Below are positions 1 to 41,708 of a DNA stretch of 64,000 nt, piece by piece (the first letter of the stretch is position 1; each line of letters opens with the position of its first letter). Both the position numbers and the translations under genes were made by a program. The stretch is from Henckelia pumila (Eukaryota > Streptophyta > Magnoliopsida > Lamiales > Gesneriaceae), in NCBI RefSeq assembly GCF_033568475.1, contig NC_133121.1, positions 192,644,664-192,708,663 on the forward strand, read 5' to 3'. Under the pieces are notes generated by a model that made no database searches, was not told the DNA's origin, and was given only the letters and a program-made list of their open reading frames with translations.

Positions 1-1656
1 AAACTCTTACCAATAGAACTAAAATATATTTTTCTTGGTGAAAATCAAACATATCCTATTGTAATATCTTCTACCCTTTTACCAAAACAAGAAGAAGATT
101 TAATAACACTACTTAAAAAACACAAAAATGCAATTGGATGGACTTTGCAAGATATAAAAGGTATAAATCCTTTAATCTGCACACATAGAATTCACTTGGA
201 AGAAAATGCTAAAACATATCAACAACCACAAAGAAGATTAAATCCACACATGAAAGAAGTTGTTAAAAATGAAGTTTTAAAACTATTAGATGCCGGAATT
301 ATTTATCCAATCTCGGATAGTAAATGGGTAGGTCCAACAAAGTAGTACCAAAAAAATCAGGCATCACTGTTATAAAAAATGAAAAGGGAGAATTATTACA
401 AGCTAGGATTCCATCTAGTTGGCGTATGTGCATTGATTATAGAAAATTAAATAATGTAACTAGAAAAAATCACTTTCCGTTACCATTTTTAGATCAAATT
501 TTAGAGAAAGTGGCAGGTAATCCTTATTATTATTTTCTTGATGGGTATTCGGGGTATTATCAAATACCAATATCATTAGAAGATCAAGAAAAAACTACTT
601 TCACTTGTCCGTTCGGAACTTTTGCTTTTAAAAGAATGTCATTTGGTTTATGTAATGCCCCGGCTACTTTTCAAAGATGCATGCTAAGTATTTTTAGTGA
701 CATGATTGAAGAATTTGTGGAAGTTTTTATGGATGATATAACTGTTTTTGGAAACTCATTTGAAAACTGTCTTAAAAATTTGGAAGAAGTTTTCAAAAGA
801 TGTGAAGAAAAAAATCTTGTTTTAAATTGGGAAAAATGTCACTACATGGTTAAATCCGAATTTTGTTAGGGCATGTCATATCTAAAAAAGGAATTGAAGT
901 TGATAAAGCTAAGGTTGATGTTATTGCTAATTTACCATCACCAAACACGATCAAAGAAATTCGATCATTTTTGGGTCATGCGGGATTTTATAGAAGATTT
1001 ATAAAAAAATTTAGCATAATATCGAAACCAATTTCAAATCTTTTAACAAAAGATGCACAATTTGAATGAACTCAAGAATGTGAAACTGCTTTTAAAAAGA
1101 TAATTAATCTTTTAACTACATCACTATTTTACAACGTCCTGATTGGTCTTTACCATTAGAATTAATGTGTGATGCAAGTGATTATGTTGTAGGAGCCGTG
1201 TTAGGACAAAGAAAAGAAGGTAAACCTTATGTGATCTATTATGCAAGTAGAACCTTAAATAGTGCTCAAATCAATTATTCAACAACTGAAAAAGAATTAC
1301 TTTCAGTAGTGTTTGCATTAGATAAATTTCGATCCTATTTAATTGGTTCTACTACTATTGTTTATACTGATCATTCTGCCATAAAATATTTATCAAATAA
1401 ACAAGATGCTAAGCCGAGATTAATAAGATGGATTTTGTTGTTACAAGAATTTGATCTTGTAATAAAAGATAAAAAAGGAAAAGAAAATGTAGTAGCCGAT
1501 CATTTATCAAGAATAATTTCTGAATCATCTCAAAATGAAATACCAATAAATGAAAATTTTCCGGATGATCAACTATTTTATGCTACTACTATGCCTTGGT
1601 TTGCTAATATTGTAAATTTTCTTGTGACAAATAAAATGCCTTCTCAAAATTCTTGA
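1..1656 (+). pseudogene. Athila-type reverse transcriptase and RNase H region of pol (broken)
   Basis: Open from base 1 to a stop at 343-345, this is the N-terminal RT region (LEENAKTYQQPQRRLNPHMK). A frame change near 330-345 leads into the main RT block at 324-869, which has the fingers and palm motifs (CIDYRKLNNVT, YYYFLDGYSGYYQI, TFTCPFGTFAFKRMSFGLCN) and the catalytic FMDD. Another frame change near 863 leads to LGHVISKKGIEVD and the RNase H connection. An in-frame TGA at 1068 stands where Trp is expected (FEW). A further indel lies between 1070 and 1165. RNase H then runs from 1165 to 1656 ([33 protein letters not shown]). The catalytic motifs survive but the reading frame does not, so this copy cannot make a full polyprotein. 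Confidence 0.85.
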
Positions 1657-2858
1657 AAGAGGTCAAAAAATTTTATTGGGATGATCCTTATTTGTTTAAG
1701 TATTGTCCTGATCAAATTTTTCGACGATGCATACCCGATAATGAGGTAATTAGTGTCATTAAATTTTGTCATTCTGAGGCATGTGGAGGTCATTTTTCGT
1801 CAAAGAAAACAGCTGCAAAAATCTTTCAATGTGGATTTTATTGGCCTTCTTTATTCAAAGATACACATTCATTTTGCAAATCTTGTGAAAATTGTCAGAA
1901 AATGGGTTCAATTTCAAAACGAAACATGATGCATTTAAATCCAATCATGATTATTGAAATATTTGACAGTTGGGGAATAGATTTTATGGGTCCATTTCCA
2001 TTATCTTTTGGATTCACTTATATTTTAGTGGCTGTCGATTATGTTTCAAAATGGATTGAAGCAATTGCATGTAGAACTAATGATCATAAAGTTGTGATAA
2101 AATTTTTGAAAGAAAATATTTTTAGTCGATTTGGAATACCTAGAGCTATAATCAGTGATGGGGGAAGTCATTTTATAAATAAATCATTTTCTTCGTTGTT
2201 AAGAAAATATGGTATTACACATAAAGTTTCTACTCCATATCACCCTCAAACGAATGGTCAGGTTGAACTTGCAAATAAAGAAATAAAACAAATTTTGGAA
2301 AAAACAGTCAATCCAAATCGAAAAGATTGGTCTTTAAGATTAAGTGATGCATTATGGGCATATAGAACTGCATTTAAAACACCATTGGGGATGTCACCAT
2401 ATAGATTAGTTTTTGGAAAGCATTGTCATCTACCTGTTGAAATTGAACATAAAGCTTATTGGGCAATTAAAGCGTTTAATACTAATTTAGATGATGCATC
2501 TAAATTAAGAAAATTGCAATTAAATGAACTAGAAGAATTAAGAAATGATGCATATGAAAATGCAAAGATTTATAAAGATAAAACAAAAGCATTTCATGAT
2601 AAAAATATTATGAGGAAATCTTTTGAAATCGGACAAAAAGTTTTACTTTATAATTCTCGCTTGCATTTGTTTCCAGGAAAACTTAGATCGCGATGGTCTG
2701 GACCATTTATTGTTAAATTTGTCTATCCTCATGGTGTTGTTGATGTTGAAAATCCTAAAAATAATAATGTATTTAAAGTTAATGGGCAAAGACTTAAACC
2801 GTTTATAGAAAATGAAGTTCTTAATGAAGAGTTTATGCCTTTATATGATCCAACTTAA
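1653..2858 (+). CDS. Ty3/Gypsy integrase domain (open frame)
   Basis: This 401-codon frame is the integrase part of pol. The N-terminal zinc-binding HHCC module is seen as H40, H47, C75 and C78. The catalytic core carries D110 (WGIDFMGPF), D169 (IISDGGSHF) and E205 ([10 protein letters not shown]), so the DDE triad is intact. The C-terminal region has the GPF-type segment ([18 protein letters not shown]) typical of Athila and Tat integrases. No chromodomain is visible. In a functional element this would be cleaved from a gag-pol polyprotein, so the ATG at 1653 is probably not a real start; translation would enter from RNase H, from which it is separated by a frame break. Confidence 0.85.
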
Positions 2859-2867
2859 TTGTTACTT

Positions 2868-2890
2868 ATATTTTTATTTTATTTTTGCAG
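2868..2890 (+). promoter_or_regulatory. candidate 3' splice acceptor before the cargo ORFs
   Basis: A T-rich tract runs directly into TTTTTGCAG at 2882-2890, ten bases after the integrase stop. It matches a plant polypyrimidine tract plus AG acceptor. Envelope-like ORFs of plant retroelements in this position are thought to be reached by splicing of the genomic RNA. By analogy this site could place the 3021 ORF near the 5' end of a spliced transcript. No donor can be checked because the 5' end is outside the window. Confidence 0.4.
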
Positions 2891-2973
2891 AATTGAGTTC
2901 ACTTCCCGCTTAAGTGGCGGATAACGGTACTCTGTGACTACTTTCAGTCGGTTTTATTTCAATTTCCCAAAAT

Positions 2974-3014
<41 letters not shown>

Positions 3015-3020
3015 TATATT

Positions 3021-3572
3021 ATGGATGAAGCTATCAAAAAACTTGGTAAATATTTTCCATCTGTTTCTAAAAAAGTTCTGAGAATGATTTATGAAGGCAG
3101 ACGTGAAAGATTGAGAATGCTTATGCAAAAAGGAATCCCGGAGGATATTCGTCTTATAATTGAAGCCAAGGTTCGATTAGGTGGTGAAGTTCCAAAATTC
3201 TTACTTGTTCGAAATATGTCTGGACTAGGAAAAAGTACCTATGCGAAGAAAAGAAGGGCTAAAAGGCTAGATGTTTGTCATAATTGTGCCAGATGGACTT
3301 GTAATAGACAATGCAGATCTTTGGGATATGTTTCCACAAATAGAGAAGATAAAATTGATTTCATTAAGAATGGGCTGAGTAAAGAGTCATTAGATGGTAT
3401 CTCATTGACTCTTGAGACGCATTCTAGTGGAGATGTTCAAGGTCAACTTCTCCATTTATGGAAACTATTCCAAGCGCAGCATCATGGTAATGGTCTTGGG
3501 AATCTGACTAAAAAAGACCCTATTTGCCAATTTATAAGAAAATTGGATGGTAAGCCAACCCTCGACTCATAA
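3021..3572 (+). CDS. small basic Cys-rich ORF resembling carla-like virus nucleic-acid-binding protein
   Basis: This 183-residue intact ORF lies 162 bases after the integrase and 187 bases before the LOG-like ORF. It has a helical basic N-terminal half, then GLGKSTYAKKRRAKRL (69-83), then four cysteines in the spacing C86-x2-C89-x4-C94-x3-C98, followed by a segment beginning KIDFIKNGLS. A glycine-containing S-x-Y-A-basic-basic-R-R/K-A motif next to a CxxC zinc-finger-like cluster is the hallmark of the Cys-rich nucleic-acid-binding proteins of carlaviruses and relatives, some of which suppress RNA silencing or act in the nucleus. That resemblance is my motif reading, not a search result. The basic run KKRRAKR could serve as a nuclear signal. 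About 85 residues after the finger have no match I recognise. The alternative is a retroelement-specific zinc-finger protein that converged on this pattern. It is uninterrupted, although RT-RNase H upstream is broken. Confidence 0.55.
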   Translation: MDEAIKKLGKYFPSVSKKVLRMIYEGRRERLRMLMQKGIPEDIRLIIEAKVRLGGEVPKFLLVRNMSGLGKSTYAKKRRAKRLDVCHNCARWTCNRQCRSLGYVSTNREDKIDFIKNGLSKESLDGISLTLETHSSGDVQGQLLHLWKLFQAQHHGNGLGNLTKKDPICQFIRKLDGKPTLDS

Positions 3573-3759
3573 ATATTGAAGGAACACTGTGAGCCACAAT
3601 CACATCACTGTTTATACGCATGCATGTTATTATTATATATTATTGTTTTTTTACTATTTTCATCATTGTTCACATCTGTATTCCTATTTCTGTCTTATTC
3701 CTTGTTTTCCTTATAAAATCACTCAACTCTCTCTATATTTTTGAAAAGAAAAAAAAAAC
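3573..3759 (+). other. spacer between Cys-rich ORF and LOG-like ORF
   Basis: This is a 187-base AT-rich non-coding spacer. It ends in a purine-rich leader (GAAAAGAAAAAAAAAAC) directly before the LOG-like ATG. I see no intron signals or promoter box. Its shortness suggests that both ORFs share one transcript or one upstream promoter. Confidence 0.4.
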
Positions 3760-4398
3760 ATGACAGGATCTTCTTCACAAAAATTGAAAAATATTTGTGT
3801 CTTTTGTGGTTCTAATACTGGAAAGAATGAAATATTTGTTTATGCAGCAATTAATCTTGGAAAAAAGTTAGCAGAGAGAAAAATTCACTTGGTTTACGGA
3901 GGAGGCAATATTGGGTTAATATTATCTATTTCAACAGCAGCTCATCTTGGAGGTAGTCAGGTTTTGGGTATTATTCCTACAGCTTTAGCTGAAGGAAATA
4001 TTACAGGTGTTACGGTTGGGGAAGAGTTGAAAGTTTCATCAATGTACGATAGAATAACTAAAATGATAGAAAATTCTGATTCTTTTATTGCCTTACCTGG
4101 TGGTTTTGGTACTTTAGAAGAAATTTTTCATGTTGTTTCTTGGGCACAACTTAATATCCATAATAAACCTGTTGGCTTGTTGAATATCAATAACTATTAT
4201 GATGGTTTATTGAATTTTCTTGATGTAGCCGTGGAACAAAATTTTATTTCAGAAAATTCACGAAGGATGCTCATCTCTGCTTCGAATGAAGACCAATTAA
4301 TTGATGATCTCCAAGCTTTTGTTCATCAACCTGATTCGGCTATAACAAAGATCAATTGGTCTCAACCAACCAGTAAGAAAAGAAAGCTGGATCATTGA
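3760..4398 (+). CDS. LOG-like: LOG-type cytokinin riboside 5'-monophosphate phosphoribohydrolase, intronless, inside a retrotransposon
   Basis: This 212-residue protein has the full length and fold pattern of plant LONELY GUY enzymes, which release active cytokinin bases from cytokinin nucleotides in the cytosol or nucleus. Visible motifs are NICVFCGSNTG (11-21), LVYGGGNIGL (44-53), Arg98 in the MYDR segment, and the signature LPGGFGTLEE (112-121) with Glu121. Differences from the usual plant motif are Asn-Ile for Ser-Val after GGG, loss of the Met-Gly after GL, and Ile at position 99 where Lys is usual. The C-terminus TSKKRKLDH looks like a nuclear localisation signal. Plant LOG genes normally have several introns and this copy has none, which fits capture from a spliced mRNA. 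It lies between integrase and the polypurine tract. The ATG has an A-rich leader. Family membership is secure; activity is not. Confidence 0.85.
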   Translation: MTGSSSQKLKNICVFCGSNTGKNEIFVYAAINLGKKLAERKIHLVYGGGNIGLILSISTAAHLGGSQVLGIIPTALAEGNITGVTVGEELKVSSMYDRITKMIENSDSFIALPGGFGTLEEIFHVVSWAQLNIHNKPVGLLNINNYYDGLLNFLDVAVEQNFISENSRRMLISASNEDQLIDDLQAFVHQPDSAITKINWSQPTSKKRKLDH

Positions 4399-4508
4399 TT
4401 CAACATGTCACGAAATGGTTTGTGTTTGTTCCTCATCTTTAATAAATTCCAGGTGATATCTCTTTCATCATGTACTCTTTATTTTTCTTTAAAAAAATGT
4501 CATATTCA

Positions 4509-4522
4509 GGTTTGGGGGAGGG
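4509..4522 (+). promoter_or_regulatory. polypurine tract of the Athila-type element
   Basis: GGTTTGGGGGAGGG is a typical plus-strand primer tract for plant Ty3/Gypsy elements. It lies 110 bases after the LOG-like stop codon. Its position shows that both extra ORFs are internal to the retroelement rather than flanking host DNA. Confidence 0.7.
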
Positions 4523-6401
4523 TTTATTTAAAAAAAATTATTTCTATAATAATATATATTTTTCCTTTTTCAATGGCAGAGTAAGGAGTCAAAAACTCCT
4601 GACATGCATTAGTTTTTATTTATCATATTATCACAATAGATTAGATTTTAATATTCCGTATATATTTAAATTGCAAACTACTAAGAAAATGAAGTCTTTT
4701 TGTATAGATTTTTATTTATTCTTCTTTTTATCAATTTAATAGAAAATATGTAATTGATGGGATATAAGTTATAAATAATATATAATTGTGTGTTTTCAAA
4801 TAACATATTTTCTAAAACTTTTATGAGTATATAATTAAAGTGATATTGATTGAATGAATAATAACATGTATAATTGAGGGAATTAATTTGTAAAAGTGCA
4901 ATATTTACTCACATAAATTTTGTGAGTGAGAGGTGAGAACTGAGAAAACAACTTATAAGCTTTTATTGATTATTAAGAAATGGTTGATTACTAGATTAAA
5001 CCCAAAAAAAAAAAATATTGTGCATATGAAAATTGGCTGCAAAGATTGTTTGAAGTTTGATTGTAAAGATGTAGAGTATTAATATCTCTACTATAATTAT
5101 CAATGTAATAGATTTACCTCATAAAAAATAAACAAATAAATAAACTTTGAAAAAAAATATATGTTACATTTTCAAAGTTTATTGGAGGTATTTGGTTATG
5201 TAAAAATAATTTTGCAGCCAAGCAAAAAAAAAAGAGAAAAATAGAAAAAAAAAAAAAGAAAAAAAAATAAAAATAAAAACAAAAACAAAATAAAAACAAA
5301 ATGGGTTTATTCTTTGTAAATTATCCTATCTTATTTTCAATATTAGGTTATTTGATTGTCTGCTTTACATATTAACCATTTTCAATGAGTGTATAATTTT
5401 ATTCCAACTCCATGAGTGAAAACTAGTTATATATATATATATAAAAAAAAAAAAAATATCATAACCCGAGAGAATATGGAGTTGAGACTTTTACATTAAT
5501 ATTCCTGAAGATATACATGTTATGAAAAAGATTTCTATTATCATTTTGATTATATTATTCTCAAAGTTTTTAGAAAATATTTATATAAAAAATTATATAT
5601 ATTTAATATTTTGATATTGTGTGAAATATATATGTATACCCCATCCAATTATATATTAATATATTAGTTGATATCAAGATTTATAAATAACATATGATCT
5701 TCTTACAAGTATGTTTTAAAATTTCAAAGTTTGCAAATTTGAATATATATATTAAGGAATAAAAATCTAACTTGTGATTTTATGAAATTTTATTACTAAG
5801 GGACTAGTAATTAGCCGGTTTGGGGGTGTGATGAAACTTAAAATTTGTAATTATTTATATGTTAAAAAGTGTATTTTAAAATTTAAGTTAAATTAAAATT
5901 ATGAAGTTGTATTATTTTAGTGTTATGTGTTTATATTTAAATGTTTTACTAAAATGTTGTATTTTACGGTTTGCGCAGGTTTGGTAAAAATAAAATTACT
6001 CAAGCTACAGAGGTCATAATGGAGTAATCTCAAAACCTGTAGAATCACAAAAGAGGCATCTTCAACTTTGTAGAAGACAAAAAATTCCAAAAACTTCATT
6101 AAGATGATCAAAATAATCAAACATCAAAATGGAGACAGATTTACTTTTACTATGACCAGCTTGGAGTACAAATATCATAAGTATTTTATATTTTATCCAA
6201 AAGGGGTGAATGAGTTGTCAAAACACATATACAGACAAAGGGCTATGTGTTATATGTTTTGTGCAGAAGCAAAATCGGAAGTCTAAGGCATCAAACATGC
6301 CAATTAAAGTTGGGTCAATGTATTGACATTTAAGGAGACAAGCACCCACCAACTTTACTATTCCATATTTAATGAGTCTTGGACCCTTGCTCTCATTTGG
6401 C

Positions 6402-6412
6402 CTATAAATAGA
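6402..6412 (+). promoter_or_regulatory. TATA box in the Athila-type LTR
   Basis: CTATAAATAGA is a near-perfect plant TATA box. It is followed about 30 bases downstream by a sequence suitable for transcription start. Together with the LTR position this marks the U3/R boundary near 6435-6445. Confidence 0.6.
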
Positions 6413-6841
6413 TGTGTTGTATAAGCTTTGTAGTGTACAAGAGTGTAGAGAATTCCTCATTTGTAAAATAAATATTGTGTGTGTGAGAATAAAAGTTTGA
6501 GTGTGCAAGTTTCTCAAGTTCAAGTATGAAATTTCTTTTATCTTTATTCTTGAGTTTCATGTTCATGGAAAGCTAAATATTTTTATGTCAAGGTGAAAAG
6601 GTTTCATTGTTGGTCAAGTAAGATTGTTTATATTTTGTATATTCTTTTATTTTATATTTTTATTTTTACTAATTGATCTTTATTTGTAGGTATAATTTTG
6701 GATGATTTGTTGCTATCTATTTACATCAAATGCTTGGTACCTTGAATGTGGTTACCTTGATTTGTTGTCAAATATGATACAATAAATACTACAATAATTA
6801 TATACTATAAATATATGTATCTATTTATAATAAATTCATAT

Positions 6842-7090
6842 ATATTATTTAGACAATAGCGTGACTCTGTCGGTTGTTCTAAATAATATATTGTGATTTG
6901 AACTAACTTTTACTTTTCGCAACTAACTTTTACTTTTCGCAACTAACTTTTACTTTCTCGCATCTAACATTTACTTTTCCGCATCTAACATAAAAAATGT
7001 CATATATTTTATTTAGACAATAGCGTGGCTCTGTCGGTTGTTCTAAATGAAATATTGTGATTTGATCTAACATTTAATTTTATGTCAATT
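6842..7090 (+). repeat. direct repeats inside the LTR
   Basis: The segment GACAATAGCGTGACTCTGTC and its flanks occur twice (about 6842-6905 and 7004-7068) with few changes. Between them is a short three-to-four-copy array of AACTAACTTTTACTTTTCGC-like units (about 6901-6990). This looks like slippage or unequal exchange within U5. Confidence 0.75.
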
Positions 7091-7454
7091 TATATTTATG
7101 CATTTATATATATATATATTATGGGTACCATGTATTAAATATCGGTTAATATGATATTAATATAGTGGGAACTATATTATATGATATATTTGTATAAATA
7201 TTTAATTATTCTCTTATGTTTATTTTTATTTTAGTTTCTTTTATTTACTTTTGTTAAGAAATCTTAAATAAACCAACAATGAACCTTTGAAGCCTTGACA
7301 ATTTTATAATTTGTGTATTTGAAGTTTTATAATAATATTTTCATCTATAATATATTATTGCTAAAATTAAACTTACAACATTCTCTCCGTGGATCGATCT
7401 CGTACTCACGAGTATATTACTTGCAGACAACCTACACTTGGGTGAATTACAATT

Positions 7455-8180
7455 TAAGTTGTAGCAATACCTCGGTGATTGATTCTAATACTGAGACGGC
7501 TGATTCTGAAACTATCTCGGCTGTTGAGATACAAACTGAGCTCCACGTTGTTTCATCAAATATTCTTCGGCTCCTTTGGCTTGATTCAGAGCATCAGCAA
7601 AATTATCGAGCCTACCAGTATTTACCAAGGTAAAGATATCGGGATTCAAGCCATTTATGAACTAATCGGCTTTTGCTTTCTCGTTATCGGCTATATGTGG
7701 CGCAAATCTCAACAGACTATCGAACTTGGACACATACTCTTCAATATTCAAATTTCCTTGCCTCAAAGTAGCAAAATCGGCCTCTTTATCTTTTCTGTAA
7801 GAGATTGGAAAGAAGTGTTTATAAAACTCAGTCTTGAACAAACTCCAGGAAATAACCTTACCTCGATTTTCTAGGGCTTTCTTCATCGAAATTCACCAAC
7901 TTTTTGCAATGCCCTGAAGCTGATGAACAACTAACCGGATTCGGTGGTCGTTGGTGTAGTCCGGAGAATCAAATAACTGTTCAATGTCCTCCAAACAACT
8001 CTCATAATCAACTGCATTCTCGGTGCCCTTCAGAGTCGGTGGTTTGAAAGACTGAAACCTCTTCAACAAGGTTTCCATTGGTGTCGCAGTGACATCCATC
8101 ACATCAGCCTCAGTACTACCCTGATCATTCGAAGGATTTACTGCTGGTCGTTCCCTGTTCAAAACTCGCCGAGGTGCCAT
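7455..8180 (-). pseudogene. Ty3/Gypsy gag remnant (retrotrans_gag), truncated by the Athila insertion
   Basis: Starting at the ATG at 8180 there is a gag N-terminus (MAPRRVLNRERPAVN..., FKPPTLKGTENAVDYESCLE) and then the gag core at 7662-7886 (WSLFKTEFYKHFFPISYRKD, LRQGNLNIEEYVSKFDSLLR). A frame break lies near 7886-7893. A TAG near 7660 falls between KAD and FINGLNPDIF, where Gln is expected, and two more TAG stops follow in a Gln-rich tail. The coding sequence stops abruptly near 7455, where the LTR of the plus-strand element begins. It is the 5' part of a minus-strand element whose primer site and LTR lie to the right. Confidence 0.8.
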
Positions 8181-14171: not shown

Positions 14172-17100
14172 TCATTTTCGTCTATCGTGTTCACTAGAAT
14201 CACTCCATTTGTAGTCCAAACCAGATCCATACTTCCATGCCTCAAGCCTCTGCTTCCATTCATATTTTGTCTTAGCTGGAAATGAGTCCAAAAAGGGCCT
14301 GAAACCAGTTATATTTATATCAGTCGCATCATTTAAGAACCGTTTTTCTTCATGGCTCAACAAGTCAAAGGCAGAACATGATTACCTTAGCAAAGGGTCA
14401 ATGAAGGAGGAAAGAAATGTATAAAGTCCCAACATCACAAAATGTCCGGACCAGTCGAACAGCACCAAAATACCAACCTTCATACCAGAAAAGAGTTGTT
14501 TGAAATTTTCAAGACTGTATCAGGTTTACAAGAAGCCATTATTTTTCCTCTACCTTCTTGAATATAGACGGTATGATAAGAGGTCTAGTTAACATTACTA
14601 GGCCTAACGTCTTAACGAGAGGACCAAATTGTATAACATCCTGCATAAACAAGCATGAAGGCAAAATGTGGAGAAAATAAGCTAAGGAAAATGGAGTAAG
14701 AAGACTAGCATTCAAGTAACATAAGAGAGGAAAGATTGTTCAATAACCTGAAGAAACGGGCGAAGCACTGGATCCCCTAGTTTCTGAAGGAAAAAAAAAA
14801 GAGTTTGGAAGAACAAATAACAGATAAGAAAATGATTTTTGAGCAAGAGTAAAAAGTTGATTAAACATAGGTACCTGCATGCTCTGAAAATTGGCAAATA
14901 AAAGTTCGTTTATGAAATCAGGTGAGACATTGGACTGCTTTTTGGCGGACATGGCTCTTTGAAACAACCAGGATGCGCTTAAATTAGGCTGCATATATGC
15001 TAAATTTAATCAACACAAGAGTGGTATATATACTGTAGGATTGTAGGAAGAAACAAAACCTGACCATGTAAGGATTCAGCAGAGATAAACTTTGAGCATC
15101 CAGAAAATCATTGCTAACTGCTTCATATATGCCTTCAATTTCATTAAAGGAAAAATGTTAGGTACAATTTTTTTCCTTCATTCAAAGTTCTATTTATGAA
15201 GATATGTATAGAACGACAATTCAAATTTTGGACCCAAAAAAATGATGCATGCCGAATGTTTTCTGCATGTATCATAAAACATTTTATACCATCTGTTAAT
15301 CTTCCAAGATGTCTGGTCAAGCTCCCAAAACCACCAAACGATACTGGAGATTGTACACCACTAGCATCCCCAAACTGTAGATATCACACACGGTCGCATT
15401 CATTGAAAATAAATTGGGGATACTATATTGAGGCTTTGGAATGATGTTAGGCACAAAACCTGTAAAACACGATCAAAAGCTGCTCGTAATGGACTGTAGT
15501 AGAGTCGGTCCAAGGCCATTTGCAGAAAAAATAAAAAATAAACAAAAGTCAGAGCAAGTAAGCTAACGATCCGACCGACTATAAGTTACCCATCAGATCT
15601 GCAATAGGTCAGTTGAGATACCAGAACTACTACAGACACAAGTACATTAGTTTAGTTTACAGATGTTAACAATGTTTACCTGTTGCGGTACGTAGGAAAT
15701 ATGCCATATATAACTCTCAAAACCTCCAGATCCTCCAGAGACACTCCCTGTAAGATTTGAATAAACATCGTAAACCATAAAATAAAGCGATACTATTTAC
15801 TGTTGAGATATGCGATTATAATAGACTAAATCAGATCTTGTTTATTTATGGTTGATAAGATATTTTATCTTTAGTAGGATTGTAAATTATTTAGGTTGAT
15901 TCAGTTACCCAAAATATTGGGATTATGATTTGTAATCTGTAAATTATTTAAAGGGTAGAGACCCAATAAACGAGATACGATAGAAAAAGTTCTTCACTCG
16001 TTTTTTTCATGGTATCAAAGCCGAAGGATTTCTTCGTGTAAAAAAAAAAATCAAAAAATGGCCAACTCCGACAGCACCGTTTCTGTTGATCAATCAAAGG
16101 TCACACGTGAAGTACCTCTGCTCGCAACTCCGATTGCATTCGGTGCTGATTCCTCCTCTCTGTCGATCACAAGCCATAAACTAAATGGCAAGAATTTTCT
16201 CCAATGGGTACAATCGGTCAAAATTGTGATTTGTGCCCGAGGAAAGTTGGGTTATCTCACTGGAGACTTGTCTACTCCAAAATCCACAGATTCTTCATAT
16301 CAACAATGGGTGGTGGACAATTCTTTGGTTCTCGCATGGCTTATAAACTCCATGGAGCCTCAAATAAGTCGTCGTTATCTCTGGTTTAAGACGGATAAGG
16401 ATGTGTGGGAAGCCGCGCGACGTATGTATTCCGATCTTGGCAACGCTTCCCAGATTTTTTAGATTCGATCCAAGCTCAAAGAGATGAAGCAAGGATCGAA
16501 AACTGTAACTCAATATTTTTCCGATCTACAAGAGTTGTGGCAAGAACTCGACTTATTCCTTGATGAAGAGGTGACTTGCACTACTTGCATGACAAACAGG
16601 GTATAGATGGATCAGTGGAGAGGTGCAAGGCTCGTTTGGTTGCCAAAGGTTTTACGCAAACTTTTGGAATTGATTATAACGAGACATTTGCCCCCGTTGC
16701 AAAACTAAACACGGTTCGGATTCTCATTTCATTAGCAGTCAATCTAGATTGGCCTCTACATCAATTTGATATCAAAAATGCCTTTTTAAATGGGGAGCTA
16801 GAAGAGGAAGTTTACATGTGCCAACCTCCTGGATTTGAATTAGAAGGTGAAACTGTTTGTAAACTTAATAAATCTCTTTACGGCCTAAAAAAATCTCCAC
16901 GAGCTTGGTTTGATAGGTTTTCAAAGGCCATCAAGAGATTTGGCTACAAACAGGGACAAACAGATCACACGATGTTTGTTAGACACTCTGAAAGGGGTAA
17001 AATCACCATTATCATTGTCTATGTTGATGGCATCATCATCACTGGAGATGATATGGAAGAAATGAAGAGGATTAAGCTGATGATGGCTAAAGAATATGAA

Positions 17101-20100
17101 GTCAAAGACCTTGGAGCATTAAAATACTTCTTGGGAATGGAGATAGCGAGAAGCAAAAAAGGCATATCAATTTCTCAAAGGAAATACACTTTAGATCTCT
17201 TGGAGGAAACGGGGATGCTTGGATGCAAACCGTGCAAGACTCCAATTGAGCTTGGTAACAAAGAAAAGATGTTGGAGGGAGAGCCTGTTGACAAGGGAAA
17301 ATATCAACGCCTTGTGGGAAAGTTAATCTATCTTTCCCATACAAGGCCAGATATCGCATTTGCAGTCAGTCTAGTTAGTTAGTATATGCATTCTCCTTGT
17401 CAAGGCCATTTCAATGCAGTCTATCGAATCTTAAGGTACTTGAAGCAAACACCAGGGAAAGGTTTGTTTTTTGCCAAAACCAATGATAGGAGTATAAAAG
17501 GATTCTCCTTTGCAGACTGGGCTGGTTCCATTGATGATCGAAAGTCAACTTCAGGATATTGCACGTTGTTGTGGGGAAATTTGGTGACATGGCGTAGCAA
17601 GGAACAGTCTGTTGTAGCTAGGAGCAGTGCAGAAGCAGAGTACAGGGCCATGACTGATGGAGTATGTGAACTTATTTGGATTAAGAGGGTGATGGAGGAA
17701 TTGAAGATGGGATTTGAAAATCCTATGAAATTCTTTTGTGATAACAAGTCTACCATCAGCATTACTCGCAATCCAATCCACCATGACAGAACAAAACATG
17801 TTGAAGTAGATCGACATTTTATTAAAGAAAAATTGGAGACAGGCATAATTGATATTGAATATGTTCCTACTTCCCAACAATTGGCTGATCTACTCACTAA
17901 GGGTTAACAGAAAACTCACTTGAGTCTCTTGTCCACAAGCTTGGACTCATCAACATCTACACCAAGCTTGAGGGGTAGTGTTGAGATATGCGATTATAAT
18001 AGACTAAATCAGATCTTGTTTATTTATGGTTGATAAGATATTTTATCTTTGGTAGGATTGTATATTATTTAGGTTGATTCAGTTACCCAAAATAGTGGGA
18101 TTATGATTTGTAATCTGTAAATTATTTAAAGGGTAGAGACCCAATAAACGAGATACGATAGAAAAAGTTCTTCACTCGTTTTTTTCATTTACTTTGGTCA
18201 GAGGACGTGATCATCCCCTCTGGTTGTGTCCATCATGCACAATTTTTAGCTATCCGATCAGGTAGGCGATAGCTTAAAAACCAAAACCAACATTGGAAAA
18301 ATGACAAATATATCACTATCAGAGAGCAAGCAATAGTTGCATGAAAATAGGAAACCTCCGCAGCCCCCATCCTAGAATGCTACCTGATATTTGGGCATCA
18401 ATTCCCAATAATCTTCAAGTAACTCTTCCAACTTGGGGCACCCTGGTTCGGGAAAAAGGTATGTGAACATGTATGTTGTTCGCTCAAGTGGGCCTGATCC
18501 AGCTGGAAATGCCTGAAAAATAATCAAACTACATCATCACAAGAAACGAACTTTTGGTGCAGTAAACGAGGAGCAATGGGACTCGTAATACCTCCCAGAA
18601 GTAATGTACTTCTGACTGACCAACTGTGTTCACCGAAGCACTACTAAATATCACATCACTTGTACAATTCTCTTTAAAACCACGACAACAAGAGCCGACA
18701 ACAAGGCACACACCGTCTGGTTGCCTTCCATTCCTTATCTGTCAAAGCTTAAAAGCACAAGAAGCAGTTGTCATAAAACTTTTTTAAGGACAAATTATTG
18801 TATAAGCAATAGTTTTGTAATTAAGAGTAAGAATTAAGCAATGATGTCAATAGTTTTAAGTTGGATACTCAACTTGCTTGACTACTGGAGAAAAGTTTCC
18901 CATAGCATCAATAATGAGGCGTGATGACAAAAACTTTCCATCTGATAGTTTCAATACCTAATAAGGAAAGAAGAGAATAATGCAAATGAGAGTCCCTTAA
19001 GCATTGCACAAGCCTATATTCGTTATCGTTATTCTTTACACTGTTCATTCACCAAAGGTCATTTTTCTTTCTTGAAACATACTATAAAATCTGATCTCTT
19101 GATATATGTGCATTGCAAAGCTACAGAGATAATCATTTACCCTGAGCCATAGGACTAACACATTTTTTGTGATTCTTAATTTCTTATACCAAGTTTCAGC
19201 TTCTAAATTTTCGACTAGATGTAATACCCATATCACATCAGATCGTAAGAGCAGTGCAAATGGATTTATATAAAGATACAACGAGTTTTTTAGCAACTTT
19301 GCTCGACCATTTTCGTAAGGCAAAAATAGACCCTAAAGAGTTACAAAGGAAGCCTATTATGTGTATGATCCCACTTGTGAAGACTCGTTTAATGAAGCAT
19401 GGTTGTGGTATTCATTCATCTCAACAAATTGTGCCATATAGTTTAAACTCAAAAAAATAATCACTTTTAGGTTGCTTATTGCTTGTCATGGTAGGTATTC
19501 TTACAGCTGCATCCTCATAAACGAATATGTTTGACACGCCGCAACCCTCCAAGATGGCACCACCAAGGAAGGTGAAACGCTTTCTCATGATTTCTATAAG
19601 CCTTGCAGGCCTGCAATGAGCAGAACAGAGCAAAAAAAACACAAATTAGATATTTACTAAAAAAATTTCATTCATAATAGTAACAAAGAGCATGAAAAGC
19701 ACAATGTGAACAAAGGCTCAGACAACCATGGGTTGAACAAATCTCTCGGGTTCACATGTTGTATGAATACAATCTCATGCAGGAATTATGATGCTTCCGA
19801 ACGTAATGTAACCAGTCAGTCATATATACCAAATACCATAGAACCACCACATACAATAGGAACATAATAAAACACTTACGAAACACCAAGATTAAGGATG
19901 TCATTAACCCAAATCTCACCCTTTCGTTCAAATCCACATCTGTTCTGCATGAACATTGAGATAAATTATTAAGAAGCACCATTTTGGTGTATGAATGCAA
20001 TCCAAATACAAAACATCTCAACACCAGTTTTCATCTCTGAAACCTCTCGCTAACATTTGGGAACATACAGGATTGAAAGTGGCAGAGGTAACACGATCAA

Positions 20101-29184: not shown

Positions 29185-29486
29185 AATATATGCTATTAAA
29201 CTAATATATATACACACACATGTATCATGTATGCAAATAATTTTCATTTTTAAGATTTAATAAAATATAACCATTTATAAGGTCATAAATGTAAAACTCA
29301 AAAGGGAATAAAGGTGGTGAAAACTTGTGAGGCCAGGAGAGACTCAAGGAGATCTCTTTGTTTCCCGATTCCAAATAGAATCCCCATTCACAAATTACTC
29401 TGGTCGCAAGGATCTCCCTTCCCCTTGTTCCCCAAACATTGAAGAAAAAACCATCATCATTTTTCAATAATCTTCCATGTCCAAAA

Positions 29487-31265
29487 ATGCCAAGCAAGCT
29501 TAAAAAAGCAATCGGTGCAGTAAAAGATCAAACCAGCATCGGTCTTGCTAAGGTGGTCTCGAGCAATACTTGTTCCAATCTCGAAGTTTCGGTCCTCAAA
29601 GCCACGACACATGATGATGTCCCCATTGATGACAAATATGTATCTGAAGTCCTGCAGATAGTCTCCTCCAACAAAGTCCACGCCGCTGCCTGCGCTCGAG
29701 CCATCGGCAAACGAATAGGCCGAACCCGCAATTGGGTCGTGGCGTTAAAGTCGTTGATGCTCGTTCTTCGGATTTTCCAAGATGGTGATCCATATTTCCC
29801 TAGAGAAGTCCTCCATGCAATGAAGAGAGGAGCCAAGATTCTCAATCTTTCCGGCTTCCGGGACGACTCCAATTCCAGCCCATGGGATTTCACCGCGTTT
29901 GTGCGTACCTTCGCTCTTTACCTCGACGAACGTTTGGAGTGCTTTCTCACGGGGAAGCTTCAGCGAAGATATACTAACAAGGAGCTGGAGAGTTGGAGCT
30001 ACCACAGGTCAAGAAGTCGGAAACCAAACGAACCGGTTCACGACTTGAAGCCCGCGATGTTGCTCGATAAAATCTCGTATTGGCAACGGTTGCTGGATCG
30101 TGCTATTGGCACTAGGCCTACCGGAGCTGCGAAAACAAATCGCTTGGTGCTTATTTCTCTGTATGCTGTGGTTCAAGAAAGTTTTGAGCTGTACAAAGAC
30201 ATTTCTGATGGGCTGTCCCTTCTTTTGGACAGTTTTTTCCATTTACAATATCAGAATTGTGTCTCTGCCTTTCAGACATGTATCAAGGCTTCCAAACAAT
30301 ACCAAGAACTAACTTCTTTCTATGACTTATGCAAAAGCATGGGCGTAGGGAGAACCTCCGAGTATCCGAGCGTGCAGACGATATCGGAGGAACTCATCGA
30401 AACGCTGCAAGAATTCTTGAAAGATCAGTCTTCTTTTTCATCTGCTGTCAAGCCCACAAACAAGCTTATGCTTCTCCCTGCTCCCTCGACTCCTACCGTC
30501 GCCTCCAGATCAGCCCGACACCACAGCTACGGAGGCCGGTCCGAATTCTCGGTGGCAACAAGTTCATTCTCCGAGAGATCAACTTGTGAATTTGGCTCAC
30601 AATGTACCTCTCTAGAAGACCTCATAAGCGCCACGGAGAATGGGATAAGCCCTGCTATCTCCATTGATCTGGAGGCTTACTCGGATCAATTCGACAAACC
30701 TTCGCAGAGGGACGATGCTTTTAGGATAAGCGACTCCTGTTCCACACGATCATTGCCCGTCTCAAATTCAATGGCGGATCTTGTGTCGCTGAGCGACTGG
30801 TCGGAGCAGGACGAAAGGGAGCAAGATCTGATCAACGAACCCAAATCTTTCGATGCACCCATTTCCAAAAACTGGGAGCTTGTGCTCGCCGAAACAATGT
30901 CATCAACATCAGCGAATTCCAAGACCCCAAATGCTGACAAATTCAATGCATTTGTAGTACAAAAAAGAGATGCAGATATTTCGAAAAAAGAAACAGAGCA
31001 TGTATTATTCGACAGTACAGAAAACAATCACTACAATCCATTTCTACTGGATCTTGACCTATCTACAGCTCAAGAAAGTACTCCTACGTTTTCTGCACAG
31101 AATTCGAATCAAGAATCACCGGTTTTGCACAACGAGAACGATCCCTTCAATGCACTTTCCGGCGAAAATGCGTTCAGTACCTCCACAAATCAGTATAATC
31201 TACAGCACGAACAACAGTTGTGGTTGCAAAACCAGAACAAGATTATAGCTAAACATATGGTTTAA
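29487..31265 (+). CDS. AP180/CALM-type ANTH-domain clathrin assembly protein
   Basis: This 592-residue intronless gene encodes an adaptor that binds phosphoinositides and recruits clathrin at the plasma membrane or trans-Golgi during endocytosis. I chose the second Met (MPSKLKKAIGAVKDQTSIG), where plant homologues begin, rather than the upstream in-frame Met at 29439. The ANTH domain fills the first half (KAIGAVKDQTSIGLAKV for lipid binding, then NWVVALKSLMLVLRIFQDGD and SPWDFTAFVRTFALYLDERL, and the second part YWQRLLDRAIGTRPTG with FLKDQSSF). The C-terminal half is Ser-rich and disordered, with NPF (YNPFLLDL) and DPF (NDPFNALS) motifs for adaptor binding. It most resembles the putative clathrin assembly protein At1g05020 of Arabidopsis. 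It has no internal stops and a distinctly higher GC content than its surroundings, as expected for a conserved host gene. Confidence 0.95.
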   Translation: MPSKLKKAIGAVKDQTSIGLAKVVSSNTCSNLEVSVLKATTHDDVPIDDKYVSEVLQIVSSNKVHAAACARAIGKRIGRTRNWVVALKSLMLVLRIFQDGDPYFPREVLHAMKRGAKILNLSGFRDDSNSSPWDFTAFVRTFALYLDERLECFLTGKLQRRYTNKELESWSYHRSRSRKPNEPVHDLKPAMLLDKISYWQRLLDRAIGTRPTGAAKTNRLVLISLYAVVQESFELYKDISDGLSLLLDSFFHLQYQNCVSAFQTCIKASKQYQELTSFYDLCKSMGVGRTSEYPSVQTISEELIETLQEFLKDQSSFSSAVKPTNKLMLLPAPSTPTVASRSARHHSYGGRSEFSVATSSFSERSTCEFGSQCTSLEDLISATENGISPAISIDLEAYSDQFDKPSQRDDAFRISDSCSTRSLPVSNSMADLVSLSDWSEQDEREQDLINEPKSFDAPISKNWELVLAETMSSTSANSKTPNADKFNAFVVQKRDADISKKETEHVLFDSTENNHYNPFLLDLDLSTAQESTPTFSAQNSNQESPVLHNENDPFNALSGENAFSTSTNQYNLQHEQQLWLQNQNKIIAKHMV

Positions 31266-32969: not shown

Positions 32970-35069
32970 GTGAATGGCTTGCACAGTCGTGTGATTGCAT
33001 ATTTAAATTACATGGGGATTTATGGTGTTTTGCTATGTGGGTCTCGAATTTATGATAATCATTTGATTACTGCTCTGGTTGAACGATGGCGACGTGAAAC
33101 ACACACGTTCCATTTTAGATGTGGTGAAGCAACCATCACTTTACAGGATATTTCCATTATTTGGGGTCTGCCTATTGATGGTGAGCCTGTAACTGGTATA
33201 GATATTTCACACAATGTTGAAGAGTGGCAACATATATGTTTGGATTTGTTGGGATTTACGCCACTGACATCGTATTTCAAAGGTGGTCACTTATCGATGA
33301 CCGCTTTATATGAGCATTGCACGGCTGCACTTGTCGATGATAATAGTCCAGAGATAGATGTCGTAAAATATACTCGTTGTATAGCATTAATGATTATCGA
33401 AGGAATCATGCTTCCAGATTATCAAGGAGGATCTGTTAGACTGATTTTTTTGCAACTACTCTAGGATATTGATCGCATCAGATCTTACAGTTGGGGAAGT
33501 GCAGTTTTGGCGTTTCTATATCGTGAGTTATGCAATGCCACATGTATAGGAAAAGCTATAATATCTGGGCCTCTATTTATCCTACAGGTATAAAATTTTT
33601 TGTTAATCTATTATCACATTATAATAATTTTCTAATTTTATTTATTATTAATGACAGATATGGGCATGGAGCCGGATTAAATATGTTAACCCTGATCTGA
33701 AAGGCTTATCTCTTACCGTGCCTCAAAATGCAGGCGATGAGAATATTCCATTTGCTCCTTATGGTGCACGGTAATATTTAAAAATTATTATCATTGTATA
33801 AATTACAACTTCATTTTCTCATAATTTTAAAATTTTTTTTTTATTACAGGTGGTTAAATGTGTACAGTTACACTCATTCACCAACACACTCTGTTAGAAT
33901 TATAAGAGATTGTTTTGATCGTATGACTAATGACGAGGTGTGTTATTGGTCTATTGAAACTTTACAACAATTAAATAAATTTATATTTATTAATTAAAAT
34001 TGATATTTTTATTATGCATTTTAACTGGATAGTTTATAAAAAAAAAGATCCAGACGTTAAAGTGATCATTGATGCATACGATAATAGAATATGGCGATGT
34101 GTTTGTCCTCTAATTTGTTTTGAAATTGTGGAGATGCATCGTCCAAACCGGGTGCTGAGGCAATTCAAAATACGCCAGTCTATTCCAAGGCCTTCATTTG
34201 ACAACGATGACCTACACAACATCAGTAGAATCGGTCATCGCAACACAAATTGGAGGGAACATCATAAAAATGCTATTATTAATTGGAATAGAAAATTGAA
34301 TCATGTTGCCCGAGGCGATCGACATGGAAGAAGATCTAAGCAGACTGATGATGATTATTTTCCATGGTTTGAGCGCATTACTGTACTCATTATATCGCCT
34401 ACAGTAACTGGACTTGGTTTCCGGCCATATCCCCACGATTTATATGTTGGCGAACAAAATAATATTCCACAAAATTTTAGTGCGCCATCTCCTGATTCGC
34501 ATCAGTCATCATTGGGGTTTGTTCCTCCTCGGCCATCTGGTGGATTTGAAAATGCCGGACCATCTAGTGGGTTGTACGCAGCTGGACCATCTGGTGCGTT
34601 GTATGCAGCTGAACCATCTGGTGGGTTGTACGCAGCTGGACCATCTGGTGGGTTGTACACTCCGGGGCCATCAGGTGGATTTGAAAATACTGGACCATCT
34701 GGTGGATTGTATACTGCAGGACCATCTGGTGGATTGCACAATACCGGACCATGCGGTAGGATGTACAGGGCAGGACCATCTGGTTCATATGTTGATGCTG
34801 GTTATCAGACTCCATTTTGGGAAAATATTCAAAGTTTTACAGATCTTTTTAATGCTAACTGGCAGCAACCTGTTCAACGTAATACTCTGGCTCCCGAGAG
34901 AAACGTTGTTTCACCTGTAATATTTCCTGGTTATTCAGATGAGCAACAAGAGAGGAGTGAAGAAATTGTCGATGTTCCCGTAGTGCGTAGAGGACAACGA
35001 AGATGTAGACCACCTGCTTGTGGAACCGGTGGTCATTTATATAACTGTAATTGCCATGAAAAATCCTGA
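32970..35069 (+). pseudogene. plant mobile domain (MAIN-like / PP7 long-form-like) gene, degenerate
   Basis: Exons by GT-AG reading: 32970-33587, 33658-33770, 33850-33937 and about 34019-35069. Exon one has the aminotransferase-like plant mobile domain (TALVERWRRETHTFHFRCGE, ITLQDISIIWGLPIDGEPVTG, SVRLIFLQLL). A TAG at 33462-33464 interrupts it, and the same frame continues with DIDRIRSYSWGSAVLAFLYR. Exon four continues with IWRCVCPLICFEIVEMHRPN and VLRQFKIRQSIPRP, but its expected acceptor reads GCAT rather than GCAG. The C-terminus has a run of A/TGPSGGLY repeats and ends in a Cys-containing tail. Such genes are host genes in the MAIN family or cargo of Mutator-like and gypsy elements. The stop and the weak acceptor suggest an inactive copy. 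Confidence 0.75.
34525..34795 (+). repeat. coding minisatellite (GPSGG-type octa/nonapeptide repeats)
   Basis: About ten units of roughly 27-30 bases, around GGACCATCTGGTGGGTTGTA, encode xGPSGGLYAA-like peptides in the tail of the PMD protein. Because both strands and other frames stay open across it, it also produces misleading ORFs (34414-34920 plus, 34502-34741 minus). Confidence 0.9.
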
Positions 35070-38325: not shown

Positions 38326-41300
38326 CTCGAAATTAGATTACTTACCGAATAACTCCGGATAACGAGTCCTCATGTCGGACTTGGTTTTTCAAGTAGCTTC
38401 CTCCTCAGAATGATTCAGCCACTGGACTTTGACCATCGGAATAGACCGCGTCCTAAGCCTCCTTTCCTCACGAGGCAAGATCCGAACGGGTCTCTTCTCA
38501 AATGCTAGCTCTGGTGACAACTGTAGAGACTCAAAATCCAAAACATGCGACGGATTAGAGACATACCTCCGAAGCATAGATACATGGAACACGTTGTGAA
38601 CTTTCGCAAGGCTCGGTGGTAGTGCCAAACGATAAGCCAACGTCCCAATCCTCTCCAAAATCTCGAACGGACCGATATACCTCGGGTTGAGCTTGCCTCT
38701 CCTACCAAACCGCATCACGCCTTTCATAGGCGAGACCTTCAAGAATACATGATCTCCCATGGCAAACTCGAGGTCTCGTCGTCGTCGATCAGCATAATTC
38801 TTCTGATGACACTTTGCGGTCCTCATCCGCTCTCGGATCTGAGCTACAATATCCTCCGTTTGCTGCACAATCTTGGGTCCTAGCAAGACCCTCTCTCCAA
38901 CCTCGTCCCAATGCACAGGAGATCTACACCGTCTCCCGTAAAGAGCCTTGTATGGAGCCATACCTATAGACGCCTGAAAACTGTTGTTATAAGTAAACTC
39001 CACTAAAGGCAATCTCGACTCCCACGAGCCCTGGAAATCAATCACACATGCCCTCAACAAATCCTCAAGTGTCTGAATTACTCTCTCCGACTGACCATCT
39101 GTCTGAGGATGAAAAGTAGTGCTGAACAATAACTTAGTCCCCAAAGATGTATGCAGACTCTTCCAAAATGCAGAAGTGAACCTTGGATCTCGGTCCGACA
39201 CGATGGACACTGGAATACCGTGAAGTCTGACTATCTCCTTAATGTAAAGTTCTGCAAACTGAGTCATAGTAAAAGTAGTCCTCACCGGCAGAAAATGTGC
39301 AGATTTGGTGAGTCGATCGACAATCACCCAAATAGATGTTGATCCTCTAGTACTCCTCGGTAGCCCAACTACAAAATCCATATAGATGTTCTCCCATTTC
39401 CACTCCGGAATGGGAAGTGGTCGTAACAATCCCGCTGGTCGCTGATGCTCTGCCTTGACTTGCTGACAAGTCAAGCATTCGGAAACAAACTGACCAATAT
39501 CTCCCTTCATACCCGGCCACCAATACAAGGTCCTCAAATCTCGGTACATCTTCGTACCCCCTGGATGGATGGAATACGGAGATGCATGTGCCTCTGACAT
39601 GATATCTTCTCTCAACTGATCAGTACTCGGTACCCACATACGTCCTCTGTATCGAACAATGTCATCATCCACTGTATAAAGAAGACTACCCTTCAACTAA
39701 TCCTTGTGCCTCATGCGCTGCAACTGCTCATCAGTGGTCTGTCCCTCTTGAATCCGATCCTGTAGAGTCGGTTGTACTACAAGGGTGGATAATCTCGGTG
39801 CGTGCCCACTGGAGTAGATCTCTAGGTCAAACCTCTGAATCTCATCCTGTAGAGGTTGCTGAACTGAAACACAAGACAACACTGAATTCTTCCGACTCAA
39901 AGCATCGGCTACTACATTAGCTTTACCAGGGTGGTAGCTAATGTCACAGTCGTAATCCTTAACTAACTCCAACCATCGACGTTGTCTCATATTCAACTCC
40001 TTCTGGGTGAAGAAGTACTTGAGACTCTTGTGATCAGTGAAAATCTGGCACTTCTCACCGTACAAGTAATGTCTCCATATCTTGAGCACAAACACAACAG
40101 CTGCAAGCTCTAAGTCATGCGTCGGATAGTTCTTCTCATGAGTCTTCAACTGTCTCGATGCATAAGCAATAACCTTACCATTCTGCATAAGAACAGCGCC
40201 TAAGCCCATCTTAGACGCATCTGTATACACCACAAACTCCTCAAGATCCATTGGCACTGCCAACACTGGTGCAGAAGTAAGTGCCTCCTTAAGCTGATCA
40301 AAGCTCCTCTGACACTCTTTGCTCCAAACATACTTGGCATTCTTCTTGGTCAATGATACTGCTATAGAAGAAAAACCCTTGATGAACTTCCGATAATAAC
40401 CGGCTAAACCCAAGAAGCTGCGTATCTCTGAGGCATTATTCGGAATTCCCCAATTCTGGACAGCCTCGACTTTTGATGGATCCACTGCTATGCCCTCCTT
40501 AGAAACAATGTGGCCCAAGAATGCCACCTGCTCGAGCCAAAACTCGCACTTGCTGAATTTCGCAAACAACTTCTGCTCTCTCAAAGTCTGCAAAGCTGTC
40601 TACAAATGATGTCTATGCTCCTCCAAGCTCCTCGAATATATCAGAATATCGTCAATGAAGACAATGACGAACTGATCAAGATATGGCCTAAAGACACGGT
40701 TCAGGAGATCCATGAAAACCGCCGGAGCATTAGTCAGGCCAAATGGCATCACCATAAACTCGTAATGCCCATAATGTGTCCGAAAAGCAGTCTTGGACAC
40801 ATCCTCCTCTTTGACTCGAAGCTGATGATAACCCGATCGCAGATCGATCTTAAAAAACACCGAAGCTCCCTGCAACTGATCAAATAAATCTTCTATCCTT
40901 GGCAGTGGATACTTATTCTTCACGGTGACTCTATTCAGCTCTCGATAGTCAATACATAACCTCATGCTACCGTCCTTCTTCTTCACAAATAAGACCGGCG
41001 CACCCCAAGGTGACATACTAGGGCGGATAAAGCCCTTCTCCAAAAGCTCTTGTATCTGATCCCACAACTCTTTTATCTCAGTGGGAGAAAGACGATACGG
41101 TGCCTTAGAGATAGGCACAGTACCCGGTGTCAGCTCAATACTGAACTTCACCTCTCTGACTGGTGGAATTCCTACTACATCATCCGGAAAGACATCCGAA
41201 AACTCACAAACGATCTCAACATCTGCAATAGATTTAGAAGACGGCTCATCCGCTGCAACTACTAAACTTGCAAGGAAGCCCTGACAACCCTTGCGCAATA

Positions 41301-41708
41301 ACTTCTTTGCACGCACATAAGATATGACATGCGAAACACCACTGCTTTGAGCTGCAAGGAATATGAAAGAATCTCCGCCTGACGGATTCACTGAAACTGA
41401 TCGCCTCCGAAAATCTATCAAAGCTCCATTAACTGATAACCAATCCATGCCAAGAATGAGATCAAATCCTGACATCGGTAGAACCACTAGATCGGCTCTA
41501 ATCATATTCCCCTGAAGCTCCAACTCAACACCATTAAGTACATTAGAGGTAGTAAGAATCTCTCCAGATGGCAAGGTAATATCATAGCCCGTAACAGCAT
41601 CCTCAGATATGATGCCTACCCGCCTAACAAATTCTTGAGAGATAAACGAATGCGTAGCTCCTGAGTCTAGCAACGCATATGTAGCATTACCTCTAACGAG
41701 GATCTTCC
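38326..41708 (-). pseudogene. pol of the chromovirus: protease, RT, RNase H, integrase, chromodomain (three stops)
   Basis: Reading down the minus strand: protease [12 protein letters not shown] near 41660; RT with [20 protein letters not shown] and catalytic [10 protein letters not shown] near 40640; a TAG at 40602-40600 between EEHRHHL and TALQTLREQ; RNase H ([36 protein letters not shown]); a TAG at 39699-39697 between RMRHKD and LKGSLLYTVDD; integrase with a zinc module (ECLTCQQVKAEHQRPAG), MDFVVGLP, SIVSDRDPRFTSAFW and TDGQSERVIQTLEDLL; then a chromodomain-like end (RPVRILPREERRLRTRSIPM, VKVQWLNHSEEEAT). A TGA at 38391-38389 stands where Trp is expected, and the frame continues KTKSDMRTRYPELF to a TAA near 38344. 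All three stops are explained by C-to-T type changes (CAG to TAG twice, TGG to TGA). Confidence 0.92.

Follow-up and report, generated by a model that had tools for sequence, protein, structure and literature searches.

For most of the extra ORFs in plant retroelements no role is known. Steinbauerova et al. 2011 reportedly described two Athila-like elements with similarity to LOGL4. Gypsy consensus sequences from Citrus sinensis and C. clementina contain a LOG-type YgdH domain, as do those from Populus trichocarpa once a filter is switched off; according to the accessible part of the paper, this agrees with Steinbauerova et al. 2011 (PMC9289625). The proposal in an initial annotation of the locus studied here, that its LOG cargo is of a new kind, is thus not supported, a LOG-type domain in gypsy elements being already in print. 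These elements are like ours in carrying a LOG-type extra ORF within a plant Ty3/gypsy element, and the Populus proteins belong to the same clade as the LOG described below; however, their description in the accessible part of PMC9289625 includes no nucleic-acid-binding protein (NABP), pocket change, tail or LOG-less derivative. The same source reports orchid gypsy elements that likewise gained a host-type enzyme domain, the AlkB m6A demethylase, but the enzyme differs and the case concerns one Phalaenopsis family of elements. According to its available text, PMC6317226 set a minimum of 250 codons for the extra ORFs it counted, which excludes both ORFs reported here, and the words LOG and cytokinin are absent from the available part of PMC7264820. 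A search of the open-licence literature, which is weak evidence of novelty, returned no NABP-LOG pair, clade-wide pocket change, tails or LOG-less derivative, no paper joining Athila with LOGL4 or Carla C4 with a retrotransposon, and none on a retrotransposon ORF with LxLxL and TOPLESS.

The window analysed here is a stretch of 64,000 nucleotides from Henckelia pumila. As the initial annotation had stated, two intact ORFs follow the open integrase ORF of a retrotransposon (Table 1) and occupy its envelope slot: an ORF related to a plant-virus NABP and a full-length intronless LOG-type ORF (retro-LOG). The element is a member of an Athila-like Ty3/gypsy family that is present in many copies and carries the two genes as an accessory cassette. 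Searches of the genome of origin covered 885 Mb in 133 contigs. In the LOG search 150 of 463 candidates were scored; all were 94-100% identical and 138 of the 150 were stop-free, intactness being biased upward by the ranking on LOG. All eight loci returned by this search carried integrase, NABP and LOG in the same order. A sample of 47 copies, made up of the window and 46 fetched ones, had NABP directly before LOG in every case, with 187-200 bases between them, and integrase in 45. A scripted test scored NABP as intact in 36/47, LOG in 44/47 and integrase in 29/45, in a sample that leans to well-kept copies, absent ones ranking lowest. The search for further copies with the integrase-NABP-LOG order, suggested at the outset, thus found them, and a single chimeric insertion is ruled out by copy number and constant gene order.

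Table 1. Features of the element in the window (L013 and L065 are loci described in the text)
Feature	Position	Strand	Details or evidence
pol part of element	1..2858	+	RT 324-869, RNase H 1165-1656, integrase 1653-2858
Candidate splice acceptor, pyrimidine-rich run with TTTTGCAG at its end	2877..2890	+	TTTTGCAG in 44/47 copies
Conserved 28-nt non-coding leader, between candidate acceptor and NABP	2912..2939	+	exact in 45/65 loci, L065 included, several loci overlapping one place
NABP-like ORF, 183 aa, conserved Cys 86, 89, 94, 98	3021..3572	+	open frame, Pfam, alignment
TATAAAAT upstream of LOG	3712..3719	+	found in 47/47 copies
retro-LOG ORF, 212 aa, intronless, tail KKRKLDH	3760..4398	+	Pfam, TIGR00730, PDB match, fold model
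Internal polypurine-tract-like run	4509..4522	+	sequence; similar run in L065
Polypurine tract adjoining 3' LTR	5817..5828	+	LTR comparison
3' LTR, TGATGAAACTT...GTAGCA	5829..7466	+	match to LTR of L013

The family shows the Ty3/gypsy features, namely LTRs, a primer-binding site (PBS), target duplications and the order gag-protease-RT-RNase H-integrase; gag and protease matched Pfam in one element, in separate pieces (L020/L013). The LTR pairs of six elements were 93.4, 94.1, 98.5, 98.8, 99.7 and 99.7% identical over 1.4-1.8 kb (gaps counted), and this high identity indicates recent insertions. Target duplications of 5 bp were plain in four of the six. The primer-site candidate TGGCGCCGTTGCCGGGG, which we take to be typical of Athila, directly follows the 5' LTR in five of them, the stretch of the sixth stopping short. 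The name Athila is itself our assumption, based on the initial annotation, the PBS and the long 3' region. A polypurine tract does lie after both ORFs, as that annotation held, but it is internal and was ruled out as the tract of the 3' LTR, which begins further downstream and has its own tract immediately before it. The element thus shows two polypurine tracts, and the internal one, with its counterpart in L065, is like a central PPT. The TATAAAAT upstream of LOG could, conjecturally, be a promoter of the LOG ORF's own. The window copy itself is damaged: RT and RNase H are broken into several frames, and its LOG has four private changes relative to the other copies (Y28, L55, S108, N152), one of which falls on the GLMG glycine. 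Rfam gave no match in the window at the gathering score.

The NABP-like ORF scored 26.7 bits against Carla_C4 (cut-off 20.9) and 26.1 against Viral_NABP (cut-off 23), covering 29 of 91 and 86 of 227 profile positions, respectively, so that it and retro-LOG both exceed the Pfam cut-offs of the families first proposed for them. In an alignment of 48 members (the window and 47 others), 45 matched Viral_NABP and 44 Carla_C4 (E 0.01); the four cysteines occur in at least 90% of members, and C98 in all 48. The likeness to carlavirus-type NABPs lies in the basic/cysteine region, but the ORF differs from these proteins in being located in a retrotransposon and in matching the profiles in part. A database search with NABP gave 227 matches among 297 candidates at E ≤0.01, and the plants named among the 120 matches listed were Populus, Xanthoceras, Acer, Orobanche and Rhamnella; in the Rhamnella protein P0095 the integrase end runs on into NABP. 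Protein and DNA scans of viral contigs found no relatives. The AF2 model of NABP was poor (pTM 0.32), and a match to SurE in the PDB (E 0.033) was taken as chance. The source records of P0012 (NABP) and P0197 (LOG) are equally long (4511, jgi), a hint that both genes lie on a single contig in another species; equal record lengths can be chance, occurring also elsewhere (P0009/P0200, 1386, ena), and the pair was not counted.

A scan of prokaryote genome contigs returned one locus, L065 (DAIEQH010000041.1). Its record is labelled as a Candidatus Nomurabacteria MAG, yet its content is a plant-type retroelement, and the contig is probably contamination. Identity is 76% in integrase and 66% in NABP, and tblastn found no LOG on the contig, which extends 983 bases past NABP. 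NABP therefore occurs without LOG in the integrase-NABP arrangement of this plant-like contig. Comparison of five copies from the genome of origin with L065 gave a pairwise omega of 0.14-0.15 for integrase (dS 1.30-1.37) and 0.32-0.36 for NABP (dS 0.67-0.72).

L065 also has non-coding features in common with the window. It has TGCAG at the place matching the candidate splice acceptor, and its bases 1675-1702 are identical to the 28-nt stretch of the window, though the integrases are only 76% identical; this stretch is perhaps the leader of a spliced RNA. Where the window and L065 share an amino acid, the same codon is used in 77/115 cases in NABP and in 173/293 in integrase, and for NABP residues 161-180 in 16 of 17. 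At the NABP 3' end (window 3500-3605; L065 2276-2407) a small hairpin is predicted in both, followed by the shared motif TGTGAGCCACAATCACA. Since codons are kept at 161-180 and the hairpin recurs, an RNA signal may overlap the end of NABP.

The second ORF is a LOG family member by its profile (PF03641, 125.5 bits against a cut-off of 27; NCBIfam TIGR00730 also passed), its PGGxGTxxE motif and its fold, as had been proposed; against the NCBIfam equivalog NF058542 it scored 111.4, under the cut-off of 300. Among known structures it matched Arabidopsis At2g37210 (PDB 2a33, E 2.6e-60), named AtLOG3 in the available text of PMC4979012. The AF2 model (pLDDT 87.0, pTM 0.84) aligned to 2a33 with a TM score of 0.94 when normalised to the target and 0.78 when normalised to the query length. 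Weaker structural matches include the nucleosidase PpnN, and among viral models two passed E 0.001, the better being a Synechococcus phage LOG protein. Elsewhere in the genome of origin, eight places are 68-94% identical to an AtLOG3 piece, after which identity falls to 45% and below. The two that were fetched have their homology distributed over several exons and retain the Lys and Glu of the pocket. An ordinary host LOG gene is ruled out as the identity of retro-LOG, because both these host loci are exon-split and hosts have a different pocket.

A database search with retro-LOG gave 7,562 matches at E 1e-10 among 7,998 scored candidates. Named entries among the 120 matches listed include, counted by eye, 20 from Reevesia, 8 from Diplodiscus, 6 from Populus, 5 from Xanthoceras and 3 from Paulownia, with one each from Primulina, Parasponia and Melia. 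The orders represented are Malvales, Malpighiales, Sapindales, Rosales and Lamiales. The many LOG versions per species, known here from proteins, would fit mobile copies. A 122-row tree placed 114 rows, the window among them, in one clade (support 100/99), which four Xanthoceras-type proteins adjoin; a second, smaller tree that took in 18 more host LOGs, including one from the gymnosperm Cryptomeria, again separated 21 retro-LOG rows (96/92) from 20 host rows (99/94). Hosts in these trees are LOG1/3-like proteins and AtLOG8, and because the outgroup is a single bacterial row and the branches are long, the attachment of the retro-LOG clade is unsure. The 359-aa Xanthoceras protein P0122 holds two LOG-type halves in one chain, which may be fused copies or a gene-model artefact; the fused Xanthoceras proteins P0122, P0123 and P0141 were excluded from every tally and tree.

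Retro-LOG shares with the host LOGs AtLOG3 and AtLOG8 the fold, the PGGxGTxxE motif and the catalytic Arg and Glu; unlike them it is intronless, has lost the pocket Lys and Glu, and bears a basic tail, with LxLxL in most relatives. Numbered after CgLOG, as given in the available text of PMC4979012, all 120 listed host LOGs, which are the closest relatives of AtLOG3 rather than a sample of all LOG clades, have Arg99, Lys100, Glu122 and Glu125, as do AtLOG8 and two bacterial LOGs. Among the 113 core retro-LOGs (without the window), Arg99 is kept in 108 and Glu122 in 111, whereas Lys100 is replaced by Met, Ile or Leu in all 113, and Glu125 by Gln or His in 109 and by Gly, Arg or Lys in four. At other positions, 37 retain His97 and 112 retain Trp129. 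The window protein keeps Arg98 and Glu121, and Ile99 and His124 replace the Lys and Glu of its pocket; all 47 sampled copies of its genome show Arg, Ile, Glu and His at the four places.

LxLxL lies within the last 16 residues in 100/113 core retro-LOGs and a basic cluster in 105/113; in the 120 hosts the counts are 0 and 1. We take the LxLxL to be an EAR-type corepressor motif and the basic cluster to be, presumably, a nuclear signal. The copies of the genome of origin end in KKRKLDH (46/47) or KKRKLEH (one), and the C-terminal LxLxL of EAR type is absent from this family. The four Xanthoceras-type proteins have a host-type pocket and the basic cluster (4/4) with no LxLxL (0/4). The simplest order of change would be the basic tail first, with the pocket change and LxLxL later.

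Natural loss of LOG was seen when copies were ranked by integrase. The best 103 copies of 48,885 candidates were scored, and 33 of them had an open frame of at least 1,700 aa (counted by eye). A LOG match at the expected offset, judged by comparing integrase places with LOG places from the LOG searches of the genome of origin, was present in 79. The other 24 had none, and 11 of these lie in open frames of at least 1,700 aa (by eye). The sequence 3' of integrase was fetched for six of the 24, and all six lacked LOG or held remnants only: in five the NABP stop is joined through a short filler to the final letters of LOG, and in L067 a different deletion has left remnants of LOG and a NABP-LOG reading frame that is longer. 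The NABP frames of the five measure 183-184 aa, one of them lacking an ATG where it usually lies, and NABP omega between these five and two LOG-bearing copies was 0.44-0.58. A non-coding motif common to L065 and the LOG-bearing copies is missing from the LOG-less ones. Because of this missing motif and the remnants, loss is more likely than never having had LOG. One obligate cargo system of NABP and LOG, as had been envisaged, is not supported, for LOG-less copies keep NABP and L065 has NABP without LOG; in the genome of origin, NABP without LOG was looked for through the integrase ranking only. Since copies with LOG deleted rank with the best integrase matches, the element does not need LOG in cis, though relatives that bear LOG may help it in trans.

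Selection was judged from plain tallies of non-synonymous/synonymous variants against expectation, in which numbers are small. Singletons showed a neutral mix in integrase (346/81, expected 335.6/80.1) and NABP (212/62, expected 218.3/59.2); the skew in LOG (26/21, expected 36.8/9.6) may be explained by the LOG-ranked choice of copies. Variants in at least three copies numbered 6/9 in integrase (expected 11.0/3.1) and 2/7 in LOG (expected 6.4/1.8), and gave a weak signal in NABP (7/4 plus one stop, expected 8.9/2.3), where, each base change being counted alone, a two-change codon can be booked as a stop present in no copy. In variants of exactly two copies, constraint was absent from all three genes (integrase 21/1, NABP 18/3, LOG 7/1). 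Among the 27 copies also present in the integrase ranking, shared variants were 2/6 in LOG (expected 5.2/2.2), 5/7 in integrase (8.6/2.7) and 6/2 in NABP (6.1/1.5), and LOG singletons 14/8 (16.9/4.4). The comparison across copies proposed at the start thus bore out constraint in part: shared LOG and integrase variants are mostly synonymous, but two-copy variants are unconstrained and the NABP signal is weak, its shared variants within the genome of origin showing little constraint. Taken over many copies, there are signs of purifying selection on the NABP-LOG cassette in the envelope slot.

The reading we favour, with a probability of roughly 0.55, is that of an Athila-like family bearing an NABP and a remodelled, once-captured LOG of altered specificity that helps in trans. 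NABP would probably be made from spliced RNA, with the acceptor at 2890, and would bind element RNA or small RNA. The LOG lineage would go back to one capture of an intronless cDNA, followed by remodelling that kept the catalytic Arg and Glu, changed the adenine/prenyl pocket and added a basic tail, with LxLxL in most relatives. Its product would most likely bind or hydrolyse nucleotides with altered specificity, perhaps in the nucleus, and would serve the element in trans, not in cis. Anatomy, copy number, residue changes and the loss of LOG were observed directly, and gene order, LTR pairs, NABP omega, shared-variant counts, the single clade, the pocket and tail counts, the exon-split host LOGs with their host pocket and the LOG fold all support this reading, in which capture, splicing, nuclear site, substrate and benefit are inferred. 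The amplifying LOG-less copies, the unconstrained two-copy variants, the weak constraint on NABP and the lack of LxLxL in the family itself speak against it.

That the enzyme would activate cytokinins, as first suggested, is doubtful, because two adenine/prenyl-pocket residues are lost across the core clade. A model in which a working retro-LOG raises cytokinin in dividing cells and NABP blunts silencing can draw on the conserved fold and catalytic Arg/Glu, the LOG profile score above cut-off and the Viral_NABP match; yet Lys100 and Glu125 are each lost in 113/113 core relatives against 0/120 hosts, which makes it distinctly improbable. In the available text of PMC4979012 both residues are named as prenyl-site residues of CgLOG, and alanine changes of its AMP-binding residues, Lys100 among those named, abolish activity almost completely. 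It is somewhat easier to credit, though still unlikely, that LOG rides along passively, as a host gene once captured, of no use to the element and lost at times: the 24 of 103 copies lacking a match, the outcome in all six that were fetched and the 11 in long open frames are what it would lead one to expect, but one clade extends over several plant orders with catalytic residues mostly kept, and shared LOG variants are mostly synonymous. Were retro-LOG instead no longer an enzyme and rather a binding protein or scaffold with a corepressor-recruiting tail, the enrichment of LxLxL and the basic tail over hosts would be accounted for; the catalytic Arg and Glu would then be kept without need, and the window family lacks the LxLxL part, so that we give this reading very little weight. 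What retro-LOG may possibly have been given is a new, perhaps nuclear, role. A bolder version, which we consider speculative and rather unlikely, is that a single old LOG capture founded a clade of retrotransposon-borne nuclear proteins in several flowering-plant orders which, beside a virus-type NABP, act on host nuclear signalling or silencing through the rebuilt pocket and the basic and LxLxL tail, for example by recruiting TOPLESS or consuming a signalling nucleotide.

The ancestry of retro-LOG leads back to a known host enzyme, the residues that changed are identified, and natural copies of the family show its loss, so that function, trans-action and dependence are testable. The Populus LOGL10 and Primulina LOG3-like database entries fall inside the retro-LOG clade, and plant proteins annotated as LOG-like may be retroelement proteins of another specificity.

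Elsewhere in the window, a copia-type RT lies at 16576-17382 and an ORF with a plant mobile domain at 34014-35069; the ORF of 608 aa at 29439-31265 contains an ANTH domain and is probably a host gene. On the minus strand, weak matches to gypsy RT, RNase H and integrase were found at 38389-41730 and a copia-type integrase at 51688-53172.
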